Shown here piece by piece: positions 5,805 through 51,037 of a stretch of 64,000 bases of DNA. Each line of letters starts with the position of its first letter. Within the stretch, counting starts at the first letter, position 1. This stretch comes from Balneolales bacterium. Its GTDB lineage: Bacteria > Bacteroidota > Rhodothermia > Balneolales > Cyclonatronaceae. The stretch covers positions 1 to 64,000 of the forward strand of contig JAIULZ010000002.1 of NCBI GenBank assembly GCA_022565805.1. Direction: 5' to 3'. Below the pieces are notes generated by a model. That model did not search any database. It saw only the letters and a program-made list of their open reading frames with translations, and was not told the DNA's origin. Made by a program: the position numbers and the translations under genes.

Positions 5805-7277
5805 ATGGAAGTTGTAAAGGAAACTGTACTGGAGGTTTTATATGCCGTTTTTCCTATTGCTGCGGTAGTAGTTATTCTCCAGTTTACGGTCATATTCATG
5901 CCTGCCGAAATATTTATTCTGTTTCTGACCGGTTTGGGCATGGTTAGCTTTGGATTAATACTGTTTCTGATTGGCGTTCATTCCGGACTTTTACCAGTTG
6001 GGGAGATGATCGGTTCGGCCTTACCTCAAACCGGTAAACTTTGGGTTGTTCTTGTATTCAGCTTTATTTTGGGCTTTGCCATAACCGTTGCAGAGCCAGA
6101 TGTTTGGGTTCTTGCAGGCTACGTAGACCAGGCTTCGGGCAGCATTATACCGAGAGCCGTGCTCATTCTTACCGTTGCCATAGGTTTAGCTGTATTCGTT
6201 ACGCTTTCGATGGTGCGAATTGTTACCGGGCTGTCGATTAACTACTTTTTGATCGGTGGATATGCCTTAATTTTTCTGATTATTTTCAGTCCATGGTCAG
6301 ATGACTATTTCATCCCCATTTCTTTCGATTCGGGCGGGGTTACCACCGGGCCGATGGCCGTGCCATTTATACTGGCATTTGGTGTAGGTATTGCCTCTGT
6401 ACTTCGTAGCAAAACTTCTTCTCAGGATGGTTTTGGCCTGGTAGCCCTCGCTTCTATAGGGCCTGTACTTGCGGTGCTTATATTAGGAATTATTTACGAT
6501 ATCCCATCCGATATCGAGCTGGATCAAACTCCTACGGAATATACATTGTTGGGTACTTTTGGTGAAGTTGGTATTGCCCTCACCCCGCTCGTTTTGTTTT
6601 TTATCTTTTTCCAGTTTTATTTGCTTAAACTAAGTGCCCAGAAAGTACTAAAACTATTTGTCGGAATTTTATTTACCTGGGCTGGCATGACTTTTTTCCT
6701 TCATGGCGTACATATCGGTTTCCAGCCTGCGGGTACGGAAATGGGCGTAATTTTAGGAAACCTCGACTACAACTATATAATAATTCCTATTGGCATTGTG
6801 CTTGGCTTTGTAGCTACCTTTGCTGAACCAGCTGTACGGGTTCTCATTCAGGAAGTAGAAAAAGTATCCAGTGGTTACATCCCGCAAAGAGTTATGCTTA
6901 TTACTATTTCTCTTGGTGTGGCCTTTTCTATAGGCCTGGCAATGACCCGCATCATCTTTGGGATTAATTTGATATACCTCATCCTGCCTGGTTATATCAT
7001 TGCCCTAACGCTTATCTATTTTACCAGCAGAGAGTTTACATCTATTGCTTTTGATGCGGGTGGTGTTGCAACCGGGCCTATGACCGTAACTTTTGTGGTT
7101 GCCATAGCTCTTGGGTTTGCAGATGTTCTGGAAGACAGTAACCCGCTGGTAGAAGGCTTCGGTATGATAAGCCTTGTTGCCCTCGCGCCTATTCTTAGTG
7201 TGCTTATTTTGGGTATTTTATATGGAGCAAAAGACAAAGACAAAGACAACGATAGCAAAGAAAAATCTCATGAATGA
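5805..7277 (+). CDS. DUF1538 polytopic membrane protein with internal duplication
   Basis: 490 aa, almost entirely hydrophobic, with about 12-14 predicted membrane segments and a short charged tail. It is two homologous halves. AITVAEP (92-98) and SFDSGGVTTGPM (173-184) in the first half match VATFAEP (336-342) and AFDAGGVATGPM (415-426) in the second, with a roughly constant offset of 242-244 residues. This is the DUF1538 family. The repeated conserved Gly-rich motif placed inside membrane segments looks like the two inverted or parallel halves of a transporter, but no substrate is established. It overlaps the next gene, a P-II-like protein, by 8 nt, and a second P-II-like gene follows. P-II proteins commonly gate transporters such as AmtB and SbtA, so this operon is likely a P-II-regulated transport system. 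Confidence 0.85.
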   Translation: MEVVKETVLEVLYAVFPIAAVVVILQFTVIFMPAEIFILFLTGLGMVSFGLILFLIGVHSGLLPVGEMIGSALPQTGKLWVVLVFSFILGFAITVAEPDVWVLAGYVDQASGSIIPRAVLILTVAIGLAVFVTLSMVRIVTGLSINYFLIGGYALIFLIIFSPWSDDYFIPISFDSGGVTTGPMAVPFILAFGVGIASVLRSKTSSQDGFGLVALASIGPVLAVLILGIIYDIPSDIELDQTPTEYTLLGTFGEVGIALTPLVLFFIFFQFYLLKLSAQKVLKLFVGILFTWAGMTFFLHGVHIGFQPAGTEMGVILGNLDYNYIIIPIGIVLGFVATFAEPAVRVLIQEVEKVSSGYIPQRVMLITISLGVAFSIGLAMTRIIFGINLIYLILPGYIIALTLIYFTSREFTSIAFDAGGVATGPMTVTFVVAIALGFADVLEDSNPLVEGFGMISLVALAPILSVLILGILYGAKDKDKDNDSKEKSHE

Positions 7278-7632
7278 GTATAAAGCATCTCAGATTAAGC
7301 CCGAAAAACTGATTATAACCATTGTGCCGAAAGGTATGGGCTCTCAGGTTGTAGATATCTCACGCCAAAATGGATGCAGAGGTGGTACTATCTTGCCGGG
7401 CAGCGGTACCAGGCCCGAGTCTTTTGCTTCACTTCTTGGGCTTGCGAAAAATCCCGAAAAAGATGTTGTTTTTTCTCTGGTCTGCTATCGGGATGTTGAA
7501 AATGTGCTTAAAGCTATAACGGAAACAGCAGACTTGAATAACAACGAGGGAATAGCTTTTATAGTTAATATTCCAACGGTGGCGGGCATTCCGAGTATCA
7601 GCGCTACTTTAGACGACTCCGGACAATCCTGA
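7270..7632 (+). CDS. P-II-like signalling protein (first copy)
   Basis: 120 aa with a ferredoxin-like P-II pattern. The start is KLIITIVPKGMGSQVVDISR (residues 13-32), the turn is CRGGTILPGSGT (36-47), and FIVNIPTVAGI is the last strand. Compared with GlnB/GlnK, the long T-loop containing the uridylylated Tyr is missing or replaced, so classical nitrogen-control modification is not expected. The ATG at 7270 overlaps the DUF1538 stop by 8 nt and gives the natural N-terminus. A longer frame starting at 7174 lies inside the DUF1538 gene and is not used. Role by context: regulatory partner of the membrane protein. Confidence 0.78.
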   Translation: MNEYKASQIKPEKLIITIVPKGMGSQVVDISRQNGCRGGTILPGSGTRPESFASLLGLAKNPEKDVVFSLVCYRDVENVLKAITETADLNNNEGIAFIVNIPTVAGIPSISATLDDSGQS

Positions 7633-7677
7633 AATTAGCTGGTCTTTACACTTTATTTTTCTTCAATCAGATTCGTA

Positions 7678-7995
7678 ATGAATAAAAAAGAATTATTTAA
7701 ACTCATCGTAACTATAGTAGACAAGGGAAGCTGCCAAAAAGTTGTTAAAGCTTCTAAAGATGCCGGAGCTGAAGGCGGTACAATTATCTATGGCAGGGGA
7801 ACCGGTATCCATGAGCAAACAAAGCTTTTTTCGTTGCTTATTGAACCGGAGAAAGAGGTTGTGCTTACACTCGTTCAGCAAGATATTGCAGATAAAGTGC
7901 TTGCCAACATTGTAAGTGAAGCACAGCTGGACAAGCCTGGTTTCGGAATTGCTTTCATGGTTGATGTTGAAGACACAGCTGGAATAAACCACTAA
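7678..7995 (+). CDS. P-II-like signalling protein (second copy)
   Basis: 105 aa, a paralogue of the preceding gene: FKLIVTIVDKGSCQKVVKAS (residues 7-26), AEGGTIIYGRGTG (31-43), and a final strand FGIAFMVDVEDTAGI. The shared GGTI--G-GTG segment replaces the usual T-loop region. It lies 45 bp after the first copy, same strand, so the order DUF1538 - P-II - P-II forms one operon. Two different copies suggest a hetero-trimer or separate effector responses; both are inference. The ATG at 7678 is the start. Confidence 0.78.
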   Translation: MNKKELFKLIVTIVDKGSCQKVVKASKDAGAEGGTIIYGRGTGIHEQTKLFSLLIEPEKEVVLTLVQQDIADKVLANIVSEAQLDKPGFGIAFMVDVEDTAGINH

Positions 7996-8128: not shown

Positions 8129-10417
8129 CTAGAAATACAACCGATATAGTAGCGAAATATTCAGACCCGGTTCAGGGAATATGTCTTTAATTACAGAAGT
8201 ATGGTTACGATATTCTGTATTTAAAATATTTTGAACACTTGCCGAAAGTGTATGCAGTAAACCGCTCTCTCTCTGCGAAAATATATACGTCGCGCTAACA
8301 TCAAAAACCGAGTAAGCTGCCGTTTCACTTTCAAACTGATCGTTGCGACTTTGCTCTGCTGAAAACCTCCATTGAGGTCTTACACTAAACTGGTTGATCT
8401 GGAATTCTGTAAACAGAAGTCCTCCAAAAGGCGGAATTAGCGGCAGCGGTACAGAAGCGTCGGATGTGTCGAACTCTTCTCGCTCTGCTCTGTCTAAACG
8501 GCGCTCTGCATATACGTAAGATACGTTTCCTCCTGCAGACAAGCTTCTGTTCAGCCTTACTTTTGCGGAGGCTTCAAGACCGTAAAATAAAACTTCACCT
8601 TCATCAAACTGGAAGTTATTCAAGCCCGGAAATCGATTGCTTTCAATCCCTGTATCCCTGGGATATATGTAGTTCCAAAAAAAGTTTCGGAATGCAGTTA
8701 GTTCAATGTCGGCCAGCCGGTTACGATTACGTAAAAACACTTCTGCAGTAAATCCACGCTCAGCAGCCAAATCCGGATTACCAATTTCATACGTGTATGC
8801 CGCTAAATGGGGTCCTTCAGAATATAGTTCCTCTAATGAAGGGCTCCTGTAAGATAATAACATTGTGCTGCCAGCATAAATATCATTAAACAATCGGTAT
8901 ATAACAGCTGCAGAAGAGGAAACCCCTGCATTTGACCGTGATCTGATGAATCCTATTTCTGACATCCGCTCAGATTCAGGCACAGCGAGGCTTAAATCTA
9001 GCCGATTACCTAACTCAAAATGAAACCGGCCGTAGTCCATTTCCTGAATAGCAAAAACGGCTGCGCTAAACATCTGGCTATTAGGTGTTCGTGAGCCCGC
9101 AACCCGGTAGTCTTTCGCTTCTAACTGCAGACCGGCAAGTCCGGATTCAATAATCCCAAAACCTCTGTGTCTGGCCCTAAGCGCAAATTGAGCCATATTC
9201 TGGGCAAATTCTGTTCCCACAGATCCATTAGATTCCAGCTCTCTGTGATAGTATGCCGTAACACCAAGCTCTGCCTCGGCAAGCGTAAAAAAAGAATGAT
9301 CGAGAAGACGCTCTGCTCTTGAGGTATTCTGGAACCGCATCATCTCAATATCCACACCATTTGGATGTCCGCCATTGGGATCAGGTGGTATGCCGTAGTT
9401 AGATACATAAAAGTTGGCAGATGTTCCTGCATAACCCCACGGACGAATTGCAGAATAAGAAAACGTATTACTTGTAGTTTGAATGTAGGAATTCGTAAGT
9501 GTTCCCGAGGGTGTTTGAAAGTCACCGGCAAGTCTTCCATTCAGGTCAACTCCGAAAGCACCTCTGCCAGAAGGAAATCTTAATTGCACTGAGCCGGCTG
9601 CCTGTTCACTAACGGTTTGCCCCTGCAACGTTACGTTTCCAACCAGGCGATTGGGAATAGAAGTGGGTATATTATCACGAATAACGTTAATTACACCGCC
9701 TACAGCATTACCAGTATAAGCAAGCGCTGATGGCCCCCGTGCTATTTCAACTTCCCTGGCCGACATTGGGTCTATCGTTACAGCATGATCTGTTGCCACC
9801 GTTGAGACATCACCCGTTGAAAAACCGTCCTCCAGAATCATAACACGTTCGCCGGTCATTCCCCTAATAATTGGTCGGCCAGAAGCAGGACCAAGCGACC
9901 GTTGCTCAATGCCTGGCATATCCCGGAGTGTTTCTGCGAGAGTCGTACTTAGCTCTCTGCGCAAATCTTGACCTTGGATTTTAGCTGAAGCATGCTCAAC
10001 ACGCCCCCCAGAAACAGTTCGCTGATCCGTAACCACAACTGCGTCTCTGCCTATGTGTAGCGGCATCAGCTCAAAATGTCGATCCTCCTGGCCAATACCT
10101 TCCTCAATTTCAACCGTAAAGCTGCTCATTTCATAACCAATTCTATGAATAAAGATCGTAATCTTACCAATGGGAATATTTACAAGAGTAAACATACCTT
10201 CCCGGTCGGCAGTTACAGCCCGGTTAATATCATCAATATGAATGTATGCAAAAGCAACGGCCTGCCCTGTAATGCTATTCGTAATTTTTCCGGATAGTAC
10301 GCCTGTTGAGCTCTCGAATTTCGTATTTTCGATAGCTTTAGCACTGTAAGGCAAGAAAAAAGTTGCGACTGCAAAAAATACAGCGAATAATAACGGTATA
10401 GGGCTAAGTTTATACAT
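8129..10417 (-). CDS. TonB-dependent outer-membrane receptor, ZnuD-like
   Basis: 762 aa from the ATG at 10417. The frame is open to 10486, but the signal peptide starts here, MYKLSPIPLLFAV. A signal peptide (about 1-27) is followed by a carboxypeptidase-regulatory-like beta domain (about 40-120), a plug domain, then a 22-strand-type barrel ending LLYRLYF with a terminal Phe. The plug has GRPIIRGMTGERVMILEDG, DHAVTIDPM and EVEIARGPSALAYTGNAVGG. This resembles the zinc receptor ZnuD and related metal TonB-dependent receptors more than siderophore receptors. Just upstream in the same direction is a His-containing lipoprotein gene, and upstream of that a Fur/Zur-like palindrome. Together these suggest zinc or another metal as substrate, which is inference. 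Confidence 0.85.
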   Translation of the reverse strand: MYKLSPIPLLFAVFFAVATFFLPYSAKAIENTKFESSTGVLSGKITNSITGQAVAFAYIHIDDINRAVTADREGMFTLVNIPIGKITIFIHRIGYEMSSFTVEIEEGIGQEDRHFELMPLHIGRDAVVVTDQRTVSGGRVEHASAKIQGQDLRRELSTTLAETLRDMPGIEQRSLGPASGRPIIRGMTGERVMILEDGFSTGDVSTVATDHAVTIDPMSAREVEIARGPSALAYTGNAVGGVINVIRDNIPTSIPNRLVGNVTLQGQTVSEQAAGSVQLRFPSGRGAFGVDLNGRLAGDFQTPSGTLTNSYIQTTSNTFSYSAIRPWGYAGTSANFYVSNYGIPPDPNGGHPNGVDIEMMRFQNTSRAERLLDHSFFTLAEAELGVTAYYHRELESNGSVGTEFAQNMAQFALRARHRGFGIIESGLAGLQLEAKDYRVAGSRTPNSQMFSAAVFAIQEMDYGRFHFELGNRLDLSLAVPESERMSEIGFIRSRSNAGVSSSAAVIYRLFNDIYAGSTMLLSYRSPSLEELYSEGPHLAAYTYEIGNPDLAAERGFTAEVFLRNRNRLADIELTAFRNFFWNYIYPRDTGIESNRFPGLNNFQFDEGEVLFYGLEASAKVRLNRSLSAGGNVSYVYAERRLDRAEREEFDTSDASVPLPLIPPFGGLLFTEFQINQFSVRPQWRFSAEQSRNDQFESETAAYSVFDVSATYIFSQRESGLLHTLSASVQNILNTEYRNHTSVIKDIFPEPGLNISLLYRLYF

Positions 10418-10492
10418 TTTTAAGAATAAGGAAATAAAAAAGGGATAACAGCTAAAAAGCTGTATCCCAATTAAAAATATAAACAAGCTGTA

Positions 10493-10951
10493 TTAATTAT
10501 TCTCGGCTGGTGCTTGAATTAGAAAGCTAAATGGCCTGGAAGTATAGTCAGAATGATCTACATGAAATATTTCGAACTGAACTTCCGAGGACCCTGCCGC
10601 ATTGCCGTTGAGCTCAACTCTGAAGTTTTGGCTATCCATAGCTACTATATTAACGACATCTTCATTTGATATGCGTAATTCCATGAAGTAATCACTGCCC
10701 TCAGGAATAAATAACTCGTTGTCATCTCCTATAAACATGACGCTAATCATGCCGGTTGTCTCACCAACTTCCATTGAGATGTTATTCCCGTTCGCATAGG
10801 TTATGGTAGTTCCGTCTTGCCTTGCAATTTCTTCGCCATCGACCATTAATACTACACCATTAGCATCAATATGGCTGTGTGAACCAACATTACATGCGGC
10901 TAGCACAACAGAAAAAGATAAAATAAAAAAGATAGATAGATATTTGTTCAT
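10493..10951 (-). CDS. Small lipoprotein upstream of ZnuD-like receptor
   Basis: 152 aa. A signal peptide ends in a lipobox, VLAAC, with the lipidated Cys at residue 20. The mature part is acidic and beta-rich. It has GSHSHIDANG right after the lipid anchor and FHVDHSDY near residues 128-135, two His/Asp clusters that could bind a divalent metal. It resembles no family I can name with confidence. It lies 75 bp upstream of the receptor gene on the same strand, so the likely role is a surface or periplasmic metal-binding partner of that receptor. Confidence 0.7.
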   Translation of the reverse strand: MNKYLSIFFILSFSVVLAACNVGSHSHIDANGVVLMVDGEEIARQDGTTITYANGNNISMEVGETTGMISVMFIGDDNELFIPEGSDYFMELRISNEDVVNIVAMDSQNFRVELNGNAAGSSEVQFEIFHVDHSDYTSRPFSFLIQAPAENN

Positions 10952-10982
10952 AGCATTTTTTGGTTACTTGAATTTGAACTTG

Positions 10983-10998
10983 TGTTCTAAATATAACA
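10983..10998 (-). promoter_or_regulatory. Candidate Fur-family (Zur-like) operator
   Basis: TGTTCTAAATATAACA is an inverted repeat with six of eight half-site positions paired (TGTT-TA / TA-AACA). It ends 32 bp before the lipoprotein start codon. The E. coli Zur core is TGTTATA-N-TATAACA; this site has a two-base rather than one-base spacer, so the match is suggestive only. Confidence 0.4.
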
Positions 10999-11684
10999 AA
11001 GTTGCATTAAGAATGTTCCTAAGCTTTGTCCTTCATAGCATGTTTCATGATATTTTACATGCGTGAAAATAATTAGCATTAATTTTGCTTTAATAGAAAA
11101 CTGCCCACATACATTCAAAATCAATTATACCTTATAGTCATGCATGTTTAATCTCAAGTTAAACTATACGATTCTGGGTGCACTGCGTAAAGAGCGTGCG
11201 AATCACGTTTAACATACTACTATTATTATCTTTAGCTTAACAACATCTTCTTGCAAATAAGAAGCCAATTATAAGAACTCTTCTTTCTAATACTTAAAAA
11301 AAGGAGCAATAATTAAAAGACTTTGCACAACAGCTGTTAGACAATTACAAAATATAGCGTTTCAATAAAAGAAAGTTAATTAACGCAAAGGAGAACCCTG
11401 CTTCTTATGCCGCAATAGACGAACTTTGAGTCGCAAGCTTAAAAAAATAGTATGGCTTATCTTCTGTTTTCCGTCTTCCTGCTTCCTGCTTCCAAAAAAG
11501 CCTTCATTTAAGTGCTCCATTTCATAAGAGCCTATAAATCGATACCTTCTGCCATAAAACCACCTTTAAAGATTGCTACCGTGTCTCAAAACCGGGATAT
11601 TTATAAAAAATGAAAGAAAAAATTAATAATATTTGTGTCGTAAACGCAAGGCACTCAAATAATTAGATTGGGTTCGAATACAGC
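10999..11684. other. Long intergenic region, nothing firmly recognised
   Basis: About 690 bp, AT-rich, between divergently read genes. It includes a short C/T run near 11460-11495 (CTTCCTGCTTCCTGCTTCC). No open frame with gene-like composition and no RNA gene were seen. Confidence 0.45.
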
Positions 11685-49991: not shown

Positions 49992-50768
49992 TCAACCCTG
50001 TTTCACTTCTATCAACGGGAACAAGCGTCTGGCATTGAGACTGGTAATACGCACAACTTCTTCAATTCCCATACCAGTAACTTCAGCCAGTTTTTCTGCA
50101 ACAAGAGCCGTGTAAGCCGGCTCGTTTCGCTTGCCGCGATGAGGCGCAGGCGTTAGATATGGCGCATCTGTTTCGAGTATCATAAATTCTGCGGGAAGCT
50201 CTTTTACCGACTTATCAACTCCCGCATTTTTAAAGGTGAGGACACCGCCTATTCCGAGAAAAAGGCCTAAGTCAATAGCTTTTTTTCCTTCATCTGCAGA
50301 GCCGTTAAAACAGTGCCAAACGCCGGTAAGTCGCCCGTCCTGCTCCTCAGAAATTATTTTAAGCAAATCATCTGTAGCATCCCGGTTGTGTAGTACAATC
50401 GGTTTGCCAAGCGTTTTAGCTACCGAGCAATGCCTTCTCAAGCTAATTTTTTGCTCTTCCACAAAGTCTTTACTCCAGTAGTAGTCGAGCCCGGTTTCTC
50501 CAACCGCGACAATTTCCTTACCGGCACATGCCGCCAGCAGAGAAGCTTCCAGATTGCACCGGCTGTTGTTAATTTCGCAGGGATGTACTCCCGCCATTTT
50601 ATGCAGCCGAATACGGTTATGGACAAGCTTATCCATCGCATGGAGGGAATCAAAGTCGATGGCTGGCATCAGAATATCGGTTAATCCGGCCTCGGCAGCC
50701 CTGTCGAGCATTTCCTGGCGGTCTTCTTTAAAAGCATCGAGGTAAATATGGCTGTGGGTATCTATCAA
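49992..50768 (-). CDS. tatD: TatD family metal-dependent hydrolase
   Basis: 258 aa, a TIM-barrel amidohydrolase. Metal-ligand motifs: DTHSHIYLDAF (residues 3-13), AVGETGLDYYW (about 93-103), VLHNRDATDDLL (about 129-140), a WHCFNG segment near 156, and LETDAPYLTPAPHRGKRNEP (about 198-217). TatD-type enzymes act as 3'-5' DNA exonucleases or nuclease-like hydrolases in repair. The gene stands alone and converges on the hybrid kinase gene. The ATG at 50768 is natural. Confidence 0.9.
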   Translation of the reverse strand: MIDTHSHIYLDAFKEDRQEMLDRAAEAGLTDILMPAIDFDSLHAMDKLVHNRIRLHKMAGVHPCEINNSRCNLEASLLAACAGKEIVAVGETGLDYYWSKDFVEEQKISLRRHCSVAKTLGKPIVLHNRDATDDLLKIISEEQDGRLTGVWHCFNGSADEGKKAIDLGLFLGIGGVLTFKNAGVDKSVKELPAEFMILETDAPYLTPAPHRGKRNEPAYTALVAEKLAEVTGMGIEEVVRITSLNARRLFPLIEVKQG

Positions 50769-51037
50769 AACAAGTAATGTAAATTAAATTTTAGTTAGAA
50801 ATATGCGCGGGCTTACGGCTCAATTCCCAAAAGTTTATGCTATATGGAATTGGCAAAACCCATTCCAAAATAGTAAGTTTAGCCAGCATACAATATTCTT
50901 TAAGTATTGATACATCTTTTTTCATTCTTTGTAGGATGATGGCATCCAAATAAAAATACAGCCGGATGCAGCTACACTATTCTTTTTATTACTCCCGTCT
51001 GCCGGGAGCCTAATAATCTACTTATTGCTAATTACTT

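Follow-up and report, generated by a model that had tools for sequence, protein, structure and literature searches.

A ZnuD-like receptor with a conserved lipoprotein partner, a probable Zur-controlled zinc-uptake unit in a Balneolales bacterium

What does a receptor of the outer membrane import when a small lipoprotein of no named family is encoded just before it, and what switches the two genes on? The question is raised by a locus in the first 64,000 nucleotides (nt) of contig JAIULZ010000002.1 of a Balneolales bacterium (assembly GCA_022565805.1), a stretch called the window in this text; whole-genome counts refer to its assembly, G000, of 4.47 Mb in 290 contigs. Both genes are read from the minus strand. 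The lipoprotein gene occupies 10951-10493 and the gene of the TonB-dependent receptor 10417-8129; the receptor ATG lies 75 base pairs (bp) past the lipoprotein stop, and there is an additional in-frame TTG at 10486. The unit is flanked by a convergent P-II-like gene downstream and by a divergent gene upstream. The initial annotation, made from the letters alone, had described this order, and the lipoprotein open reading frame (ORF) at 10951-10493, its lipobox LAAC, the lipid Cys20 and the GSHSHIDANG a few residues on were all confirmed. On sequence comparison, the two genes form a real unit. In the reading favoured here, with a probability of roughly 0.7, a ZnuD-like zinc receptor and its conserved lipoprotein partner are controlled by Zur. 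The two genes are the following.

8129 to 10417, minus strand: ZnuD-like TonB-dependent receptor, 762 amino acids (aa) from the ATG, with a carboxypeptidase-regulatory-like domain, plug and barrel (Pfam Plug, TonB_dep_Rec_b-barrel and CarbopepD_reg_2 over cut-off).
10493 to 10951, minus strand: lipoprotein, 152 aa, of an unnamed family, with a predicted immunoglobulin-like (Ig-like) beta-sandwich and no Pfam or NCBIfam family over cut-off.

The resemblance of the receptor plug to ZnuD, suggested earlier, was borne out in NCBIfam, in the PDB and by receptor profile. ZnuD is the top NCBIfam match (189.5 bits, the next among the families listed having 104) and the top PDB match (4rdr, 98 bits, the next 43), while the profile built from 43 receptors gives 4rdr 310.8 bits, followed by PhuR with 119 and OprC, a receptor for copper, with 116. 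In the part of the ZnuD account available to us (PMC4557270), the ligands of the high-affinity zinc ion are Asp99, His100, Glu340 and His499. These ligands align to D212, H213, E395 and H539 of the window receptor in the numbering of alignment A2, which comprises 38 of the 52 pair receptors, the window receptor and four second receptors, and all four positions (D, H, E, H) are identical in 43 of the 43 aligned sequences. For this mapping, an offset of 14 in the 4rdr chain numbering was inferred from the Asp-His pair, and the same offset then falls on the Glu and the His. The extracellular loop 3 of ZnuD (4rdr chain residues about 271-316), which carries two His-rich clusters, falls in the gap separating the two stretches that align, and nothing in the receptor profile corresponds to it. 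The codons of the predicted zinc site are listed here in ATG numbering.

9785 to 9790, minus strand: D210-H211 (D212-H213 in A2), aligned to ZnuD Asp99-His100 of 4rdr, invariant in 43 of 43.
9239 to 9241, minus strand: E393 (E395 in A2), aligned to ZnuD Glu340 of 4rdr, invariant in 43 of 43.
8807 to 8809, minus strand: H537 (H539 in A2), aligned to ZnuD His499 of 4rdr, invariant in 43 of 43.

The order of the two genes is conserved far beyond the window. A search with the lipoprotein only, in 296 genomes of the phylum, gave matches in 57 including the window's own, and 57 loci were fetched (56 from other genomes plus one further place in G278). Lipoprotein homology was the sole criterion for these loci, and in 53 of them a receptor like that of the window lies directly downstream on the same strand. 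Three loci (L082, L083 and L096) are unmatched by the lipoprotein profile; once they are set aside the partnership is 53 of 54, L090, with no receptor nearby, being the remaining exception, and in L071 the receptor match is split in two pieces. Searching 394 genomes with the lipoprotein profile detected it in 95, including 48 of the 52 genomes of the order. Among the 40 fresh loci that this search supplied, 38 have the receptor directly downstream; of the two exceptions one stops at a contig end and the other has its receptor 764 bp away. Within the window's family, the lipoprotein is upstream of receptor 1 in all ten loci tested. Five second-receptor loci of the family gave no lipoprotein by tblastn, and the second-receptor locus L192 gave a single weak lipoprotein profile match (12.6 bits) on the opposite strand. 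By these sequence counts the lipoprotein is a conserved partner of the receptor. A second lipoprotein-like ORF precedes the first in L184 (= L095), L183, L185 and L189, all of the window's family.

The lipoprotein family is unnamed and is a partner of the receptor, as the initial annotation had suggested; the partnership is a conserved one. The window member has nothing over cut-off in Pfam and no NCBIfam match at all. Alignment A1 (45 sequences) consists of the window lipoprotein and those of 44 of the 50 pairs, five two-domain members and L091, which is nearly identical to L089, being omitted. No Pfam family matches more than six of the other 44 members at E 0.1; the matches are mostly scattered Ig-like domains, the best being Big_1 in one member (4.6e-7). 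The window sequence has no credible match in the PDB, while the lipoprotein profile has weak ones to Ig-like S-layer domains (best E 0.0044). A fold search with the structure model likewise placed Ig-like and S-layer domains best, with Z up to 9.8 over 94 aligned residues at 2.6 Å; the modelled Ig-like arrangement is a common one and points to no function. The two-domain lipoproteins of about 270-300 residues in L059, L074, L078, L080 and L086 (272-294 aa) are apparently tandem duplications of the Ig-like unit.

From the lipid Cys onward, the sequence of the window lipoprotein is CNVGSHSHIDANG. Two parts of it stand out by their conservation in A1.

10865 to 10894, minus strand: lipid Cys20 to D29 (CNVGSHSHID), a His/acidic tail in which H27 and D29 are conserved.
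10547 to 10564, minus strand: H130-V-D-H133-S-D135, an HxxHxD motif.

Among the 45 sequences, Cys20 is present in 43, H27 in 38, D29 as Asp or Glu in 39 and G32 in 41. H130 is found in all 45 and H133 in 41, and D135 is Asp in 40 and Glu in four. The fraction of His, Asp and Glu (H/D/E) is 0.46 from the lipid Cys to G32 and 0.23 beyond it. From the conserved His and Asp positions we infer that the lipoprotein binds metal. Its role beside the receptor could instead be structural or one of gating (as an Ig-like cap or an assembly factor), or it could bind a zinc chelate or a carrier protein and not zinc itself: the predicted Ig-like fold is a common scaffold, HxxHxD could be structural, and H133 is missing in four and H27 in seven of the 45 members. 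We consider a lipoprotein of this kind rather unlikely, given the H/D/E enrichment of the tail and the near-invariant His and Asp positions.

The case for control by Zur begins with a single site in front of the lipoprotein gene.

10990 to 11008, minus strand: predicted Zur box AATGCAACTTTGTTATATT, agreeing with the consensus at 14 of 16 positions, 38 bp before the lipoprotein ATG.

This box is identical in G000, G112, G022 and G299 while its flanks differ. In a test on 11 genomes of the window's family (cut-off 13 of 16; the fragments L187, L188 and L196-L198 left out), the 19-bp palindrome AATGCAACNNNGTTGCATT was found at or above this cut-off upstream of zur in 10 of 10 regions, of the COG0523 gene (zigA) in 8 of 8 and of receptor 2 in 4 of 6. 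The total is 22 of 24 upstream regions, compared with at most 2 of 24 for any of 200 scrambled palindromes. Across the window's own genome, the pattern TGCAACNNNNTTGCATT with up to two mismatches occurs 134 times, as against 47 for the reversed control. A Zur site predicted for Desulfovibrio in 2004 reads ATGCAACnnnGTTGCAT, as given in the available part of that study (PMC545781). We take AATGCAACTTTGTTATATT to be the candidate operator because the same palindrome stands before zur and zigA and equals the published Zur consensus. At the receptor-1 loci of the family (n = 10), the box is present in five within the stretch examined, and in a sixth (G104) further upstream. At the G104 locus (L095), box-like sites with 13-14 of 16 positions, as many as three, lie far upstream.

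The genes that would form the rest of the regulon are few. The Zur candidate (G000:C7:50455, gene 50455-50898) is a Fur-family protein by PF01475, over cut-off; a gene for a MerC-family membrane protein is located closely behind it (L097:5965-6857). The COG0523 protein scores 540 bits on the NCBIfam zinc chaperone ZigA, for which the cut-off is 600. A second ZnuD-like receptor gene, with a box of 14 of 16, is divergent from an ABC metal transporter, putatively for zinc or manganese (G000:C46, L098:2926-10237), and this transporter shows, by eye, parts of a DtxR-like regulator, one of them at the end of a permease ORF. A ZnuABC partner was sought and rejected: the genome yielded a single PF01297 binding protein, from which the second receptor is divergent; it sits, by eye, with DtxR-type regulators, and its NCBIfam matches are mixed, being to zinc (AztC) and manganese (EfaA, MntC) families and all under cut-off.

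Taken together, these features suggest an operon that would bring zinc across the outer membrane. When the cell is rich in zinc, Zur would repress the operon by binding its box, which lies 38 bp ahead of the lipoprotein start; when zinc is low, the operon would open together with zur, the gene for the ZigA-like zinc chaperone and the second ZnuD-like receptor. The receptor would bind Zn(II) at the buried Asp-His/Glu/His site, and import would be powered by TonB. The lipoprotein would be held in the outer membrane, presumably on its outer face, where the H/D/E-rich tail and the HxxHxD edge may capture zinc and pass it to the receptor, standing in for the His-rich loop of ZnuD that these receptors lack.

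Related pairs outside this arrangement point to another kind of switch. In 46 of 50 related pairs (L042-L094), the lipoprotein is preceded, at a distance of no more than 320 nt, by an ORF with the C-terminal sequence R[AGSD]PP. The pair loci contain 2207 ORFs of 50-220 aa, and 47 of these have such an ending. A CXXC is present in 23 of the 46 leaders, always 41-45 residues before R[AGSD]PP and 17 times at 42. These counts come from a script run on 50 pairs; by hand, L073 was found to have a RAPP leader and L056 none, and L062 is interrupted by the end of its contig. Of the 40 fresh loci, 34 conform to the strict leader rule. The six others are four with KAPP, KSPP or a longer tail after RAPP, then G387, and L227 without a leader. 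In the window, the script found no ORF with a terminal PP on the minus strand in the interval from the lipoprotein start to the divergent gene.

The leaders recall two published peptides, each known to us from part of its description. In CruR, 45 residues separate a CXXC from RAPP; this peptide stands at the head of a TonB-receptor operon in Bordetella, and it is proposed to arrest the ribosome at RAPP when copper is absent (PMC9426467). For CutF of Rhodobacter, the proposed mechanism is a delay in export that opens a hairpin covering the ribosome-binding site of the next gene (PMC9973294). Five of the 46 leaders were scanned with PF11162 (DUF2946) and remained under its cut-off of 23.7 bits, with 22.1, 13.6 and no score for three; the window's own genome, searched for a DUF2946 gene, gave no match. 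A hairpin was looked for in 45 of the 46 leaders, the gap being too long in one. Between leader end and lipoprotein start, on average 10.0 long-range pairs are predicted, compared with 4.8 in shuffles (Wilcoxon 2.5e-6), and 34 of the 45 are above their own shuffle mean; for 90 control gene pairs the values are 5.3 and 5.9. The single-locus level of 5 in 100 shuffles is reached by 7 of 45 leaders and 4 of 90 controls, and 8 of 45 leaders have no long-range pair at all. Support for the hairpin is in the group mean, and single loci are seldom convincing. Folding z-scores, computed for the leaders without matched control gene pairs, average -2.4, with 29 of 45 below -2. In L049 and L078, the Pro-Pro codons CCTCC are opposite the GGAGG before the lipoprotein start.

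It seems that either Zur or a leader peptide controls the importer. A Zur profile searched against 53 genomes, three of which (G112, G022 and G104) had contributed to building it, scores above 200 bits only in G112, G022, G104 and G219. These hold the four leaderless pairs among the 50, and the box is present in all four. Next come G286 with 113 bits (leader not determinable), G184 with 103 (a leader is present) and G066 with 91, where the Fur-family gene is found just before the leader and the pair. The four-of-four coincidence amounts to 1 in 230,300, which is not a fair probability since the exchange occurred in only two lineages. For G387 (an f3 genome) a Zur box and no leader had been predicted beforehand: the absence of a leader held, and the box has 12 of 16 positions, below the cut-off of 13. 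G279, with neither leader nor Zur match, counts against a clean exchange, and L081, with a leader plus a box of 13 of 16, counts against strict exclusion of the one by the other. G183 (L204) likewise counts against a clean exchange: its Fur-like gene (73 bits on the Zur profile) has a box of 13 of 16 located 39 bp before the matched start, though the pair has a leader; a Zur-like regulator may be present there beside the leader.

The leaders also invite the view that copper, or another divalent metal, is what the unit brings in, and that Zur took over in the window's family only. CruR and CutF respond to copper (PMC9426467, PMC9973294), the operon that CruR heads encodes a copper receptor (PMC12914433), as far as the available parts of these papers go, and 46 of 50 related pairs have a leader like theirs. 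We regard import of copper as improbable: the four zinc ligands of ZnuD are kept in every one of the 43 aligned receptors, the receptor profile has 310.8 bits on ZnuD and 116 on the copper receptor OprC, and the box is common to zur and zigA in the window's family. The aligned zinc ligands and the common box favour zinc over copper. A broader proposal, which we advance tentatively and would not yet bet on, is that an Ig-like lipoprotein replaces the His-rich loop of ZnuD in a widespread importer of two proteins, with Zur and its box (in the window's family) or a zinc-sensing leader of the CruR/CutF type (in most of the other lineages seen) as interchangeable switches, stalling at RAPP opening a hairpin over the lipoprotein start. 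The metal sensed by the leaders would in that case be zinc.

One more site had been put forward as the place where control is exerted.

10983 to 10998, plus strand: palindrome TGTTCTAAATATAACA, 31 bp before the lipoprotein ATG, overlapping the Zur box and judged not to be the operator itself.

That TGTTCTAAATATAACA is the operator of Zur or of another Fur-family protein is hardly credible and was rejected: it is 12/16 symmetric and resembles proteobacterial Zur sites such as those of Caulobacter (PMC4176598), but with up to two mismatches it is not enriched in the genome (6 places, reversed control 5), its outer half is not kept in relatives of the same genus (TGTTATATTTAGCGCA in G112, TGTTATATTTAGATGA in G022, TGTTATATTTAGAACA in the window) and its conserved part is explained by the overlapping box. 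The initial annotation had pointed to this palindrome; its other proposal, control by Zur, is supported, with the operator moved to the overlapping box about 8 bp further out.

Several observations weigh against a Zur-controlled zinc importer of this design. The best NCBIfam match of the Zur candidate is Zur with 42.9 bits, where the cut-off is 167, and PerR has 42.3. In the window's box the half-site GTTATATT is degenerate, the whole being 12/19 symmetric; the degenerate half-site is identical in the four genomes. Four of the 10 receptor-1 loci (both G297 copies, G298 and G302) have no box in the stretch examined, and for receptor 2 the box is missing in two of six regions. With 189.5 bits, the receptor does not reach the cut-off of NCBIfam NF038289 (ZnuD), which is 950 bits; it falls outside ZnuD by curated score, yet by its predicted site it should work like ZnuD. 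The structure model of the lipoprotein, a beta-sandwich, has a pLDDT (predicted local distance difference test) of 72.9 and a pTM (predicted template modelling score) of 0.61 and was built from two sequences; the surface location of this protein is presumed and, like its metal binding, putative. Finally, the related pairs are headed by leaders of the CruR/CutF-like group, which is best known from copper.

Next to the unit, positions 5805-7995 of the window carry a double DUF1538 (UmpA/UmpB-like) gene followed by two P-II-like ORFs, one recognised by eye at 7174-7632 and the other a P-II gene (PF00543) at 7678-7995. This order suggests P-II control of the DUF1538 (UmpA/UmpB-like) transporter. 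At the same place in the same-genus G022 (L159, 4302-5093), the two parts look like a single ORF.

Our literature searches covered open-licence papers, most subscription papers and preprints being outside them. They gave no account of zinc crossing the outer membrane in bacteria of this kind and, among the matches listed, neither the lipoprotein family nor a zinc-responsive arrest-peptide switch. The analysis supplies a concrete gene pair with a conserved, unnamed lipoprotein partner, a candidate operator sequence and a small, testable regulon. A DNA-binding zinc repressor apparently swapped for a leader peptide at one operon offers a natural comparison, and the swap raises the question whether leaders of the CruR/CutF type, known from copper, sense zinc too.

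The proposed unit can be set beside several known systems. Bacteroidota have pairs of a surface lipoprotein and a TonB receptor, such as BtuG-BtuB, SusD-SusC and HmuY. The window's pair has in common with these a lipoprotein beside a receptor and acidic residues after the lipid Cys, and differs in the small size and predicted Ig-like fold of its lipoprotein and in a ligand presumed to be a metal ion. ZnuD of Neisseria is under Zur control. The window receptor shares with it the plug and barrel and, by alignment, the four buried zinc ligands (PDB 4RDR; PMC4557270, in the part available); it differs in its additional N-terminal carboxypeptidase-regulatory-like domain, the lack of a counterpart to His-rich loop 3, its low overall score (189.5 bits, cut-off 950) and its conserved lipoprotein partner. 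The leaders of the related pairs are like CruR and CutF, as partly described, in their length of about 100-130 aa, the C-terminal RAPP-type motif, the CXXC (23 of 46) at 41-45 residues from it, their place upstream of the lipoprotein-receptor pair and the predicted pairing with the start of the next gene; unlike them, they head a zinc-type receptor and a lipoprotein, score weakly or not at all on PF11162 and are absent from the window's operon. With the Zur regulon of Desulfovibrio, in the available part of its description (PMC545781), the predicted regulon has in common the consensus ATGCAACnnnGTTGCAT, zinc-uptake targets and a zur gene within a controlled operon, but the Desulfovibrio box precedes znuABC-zur, whereas the box described here precedes genes for TonB receptors, the lipoprotein, Zur and the ZigA-like chaperone.

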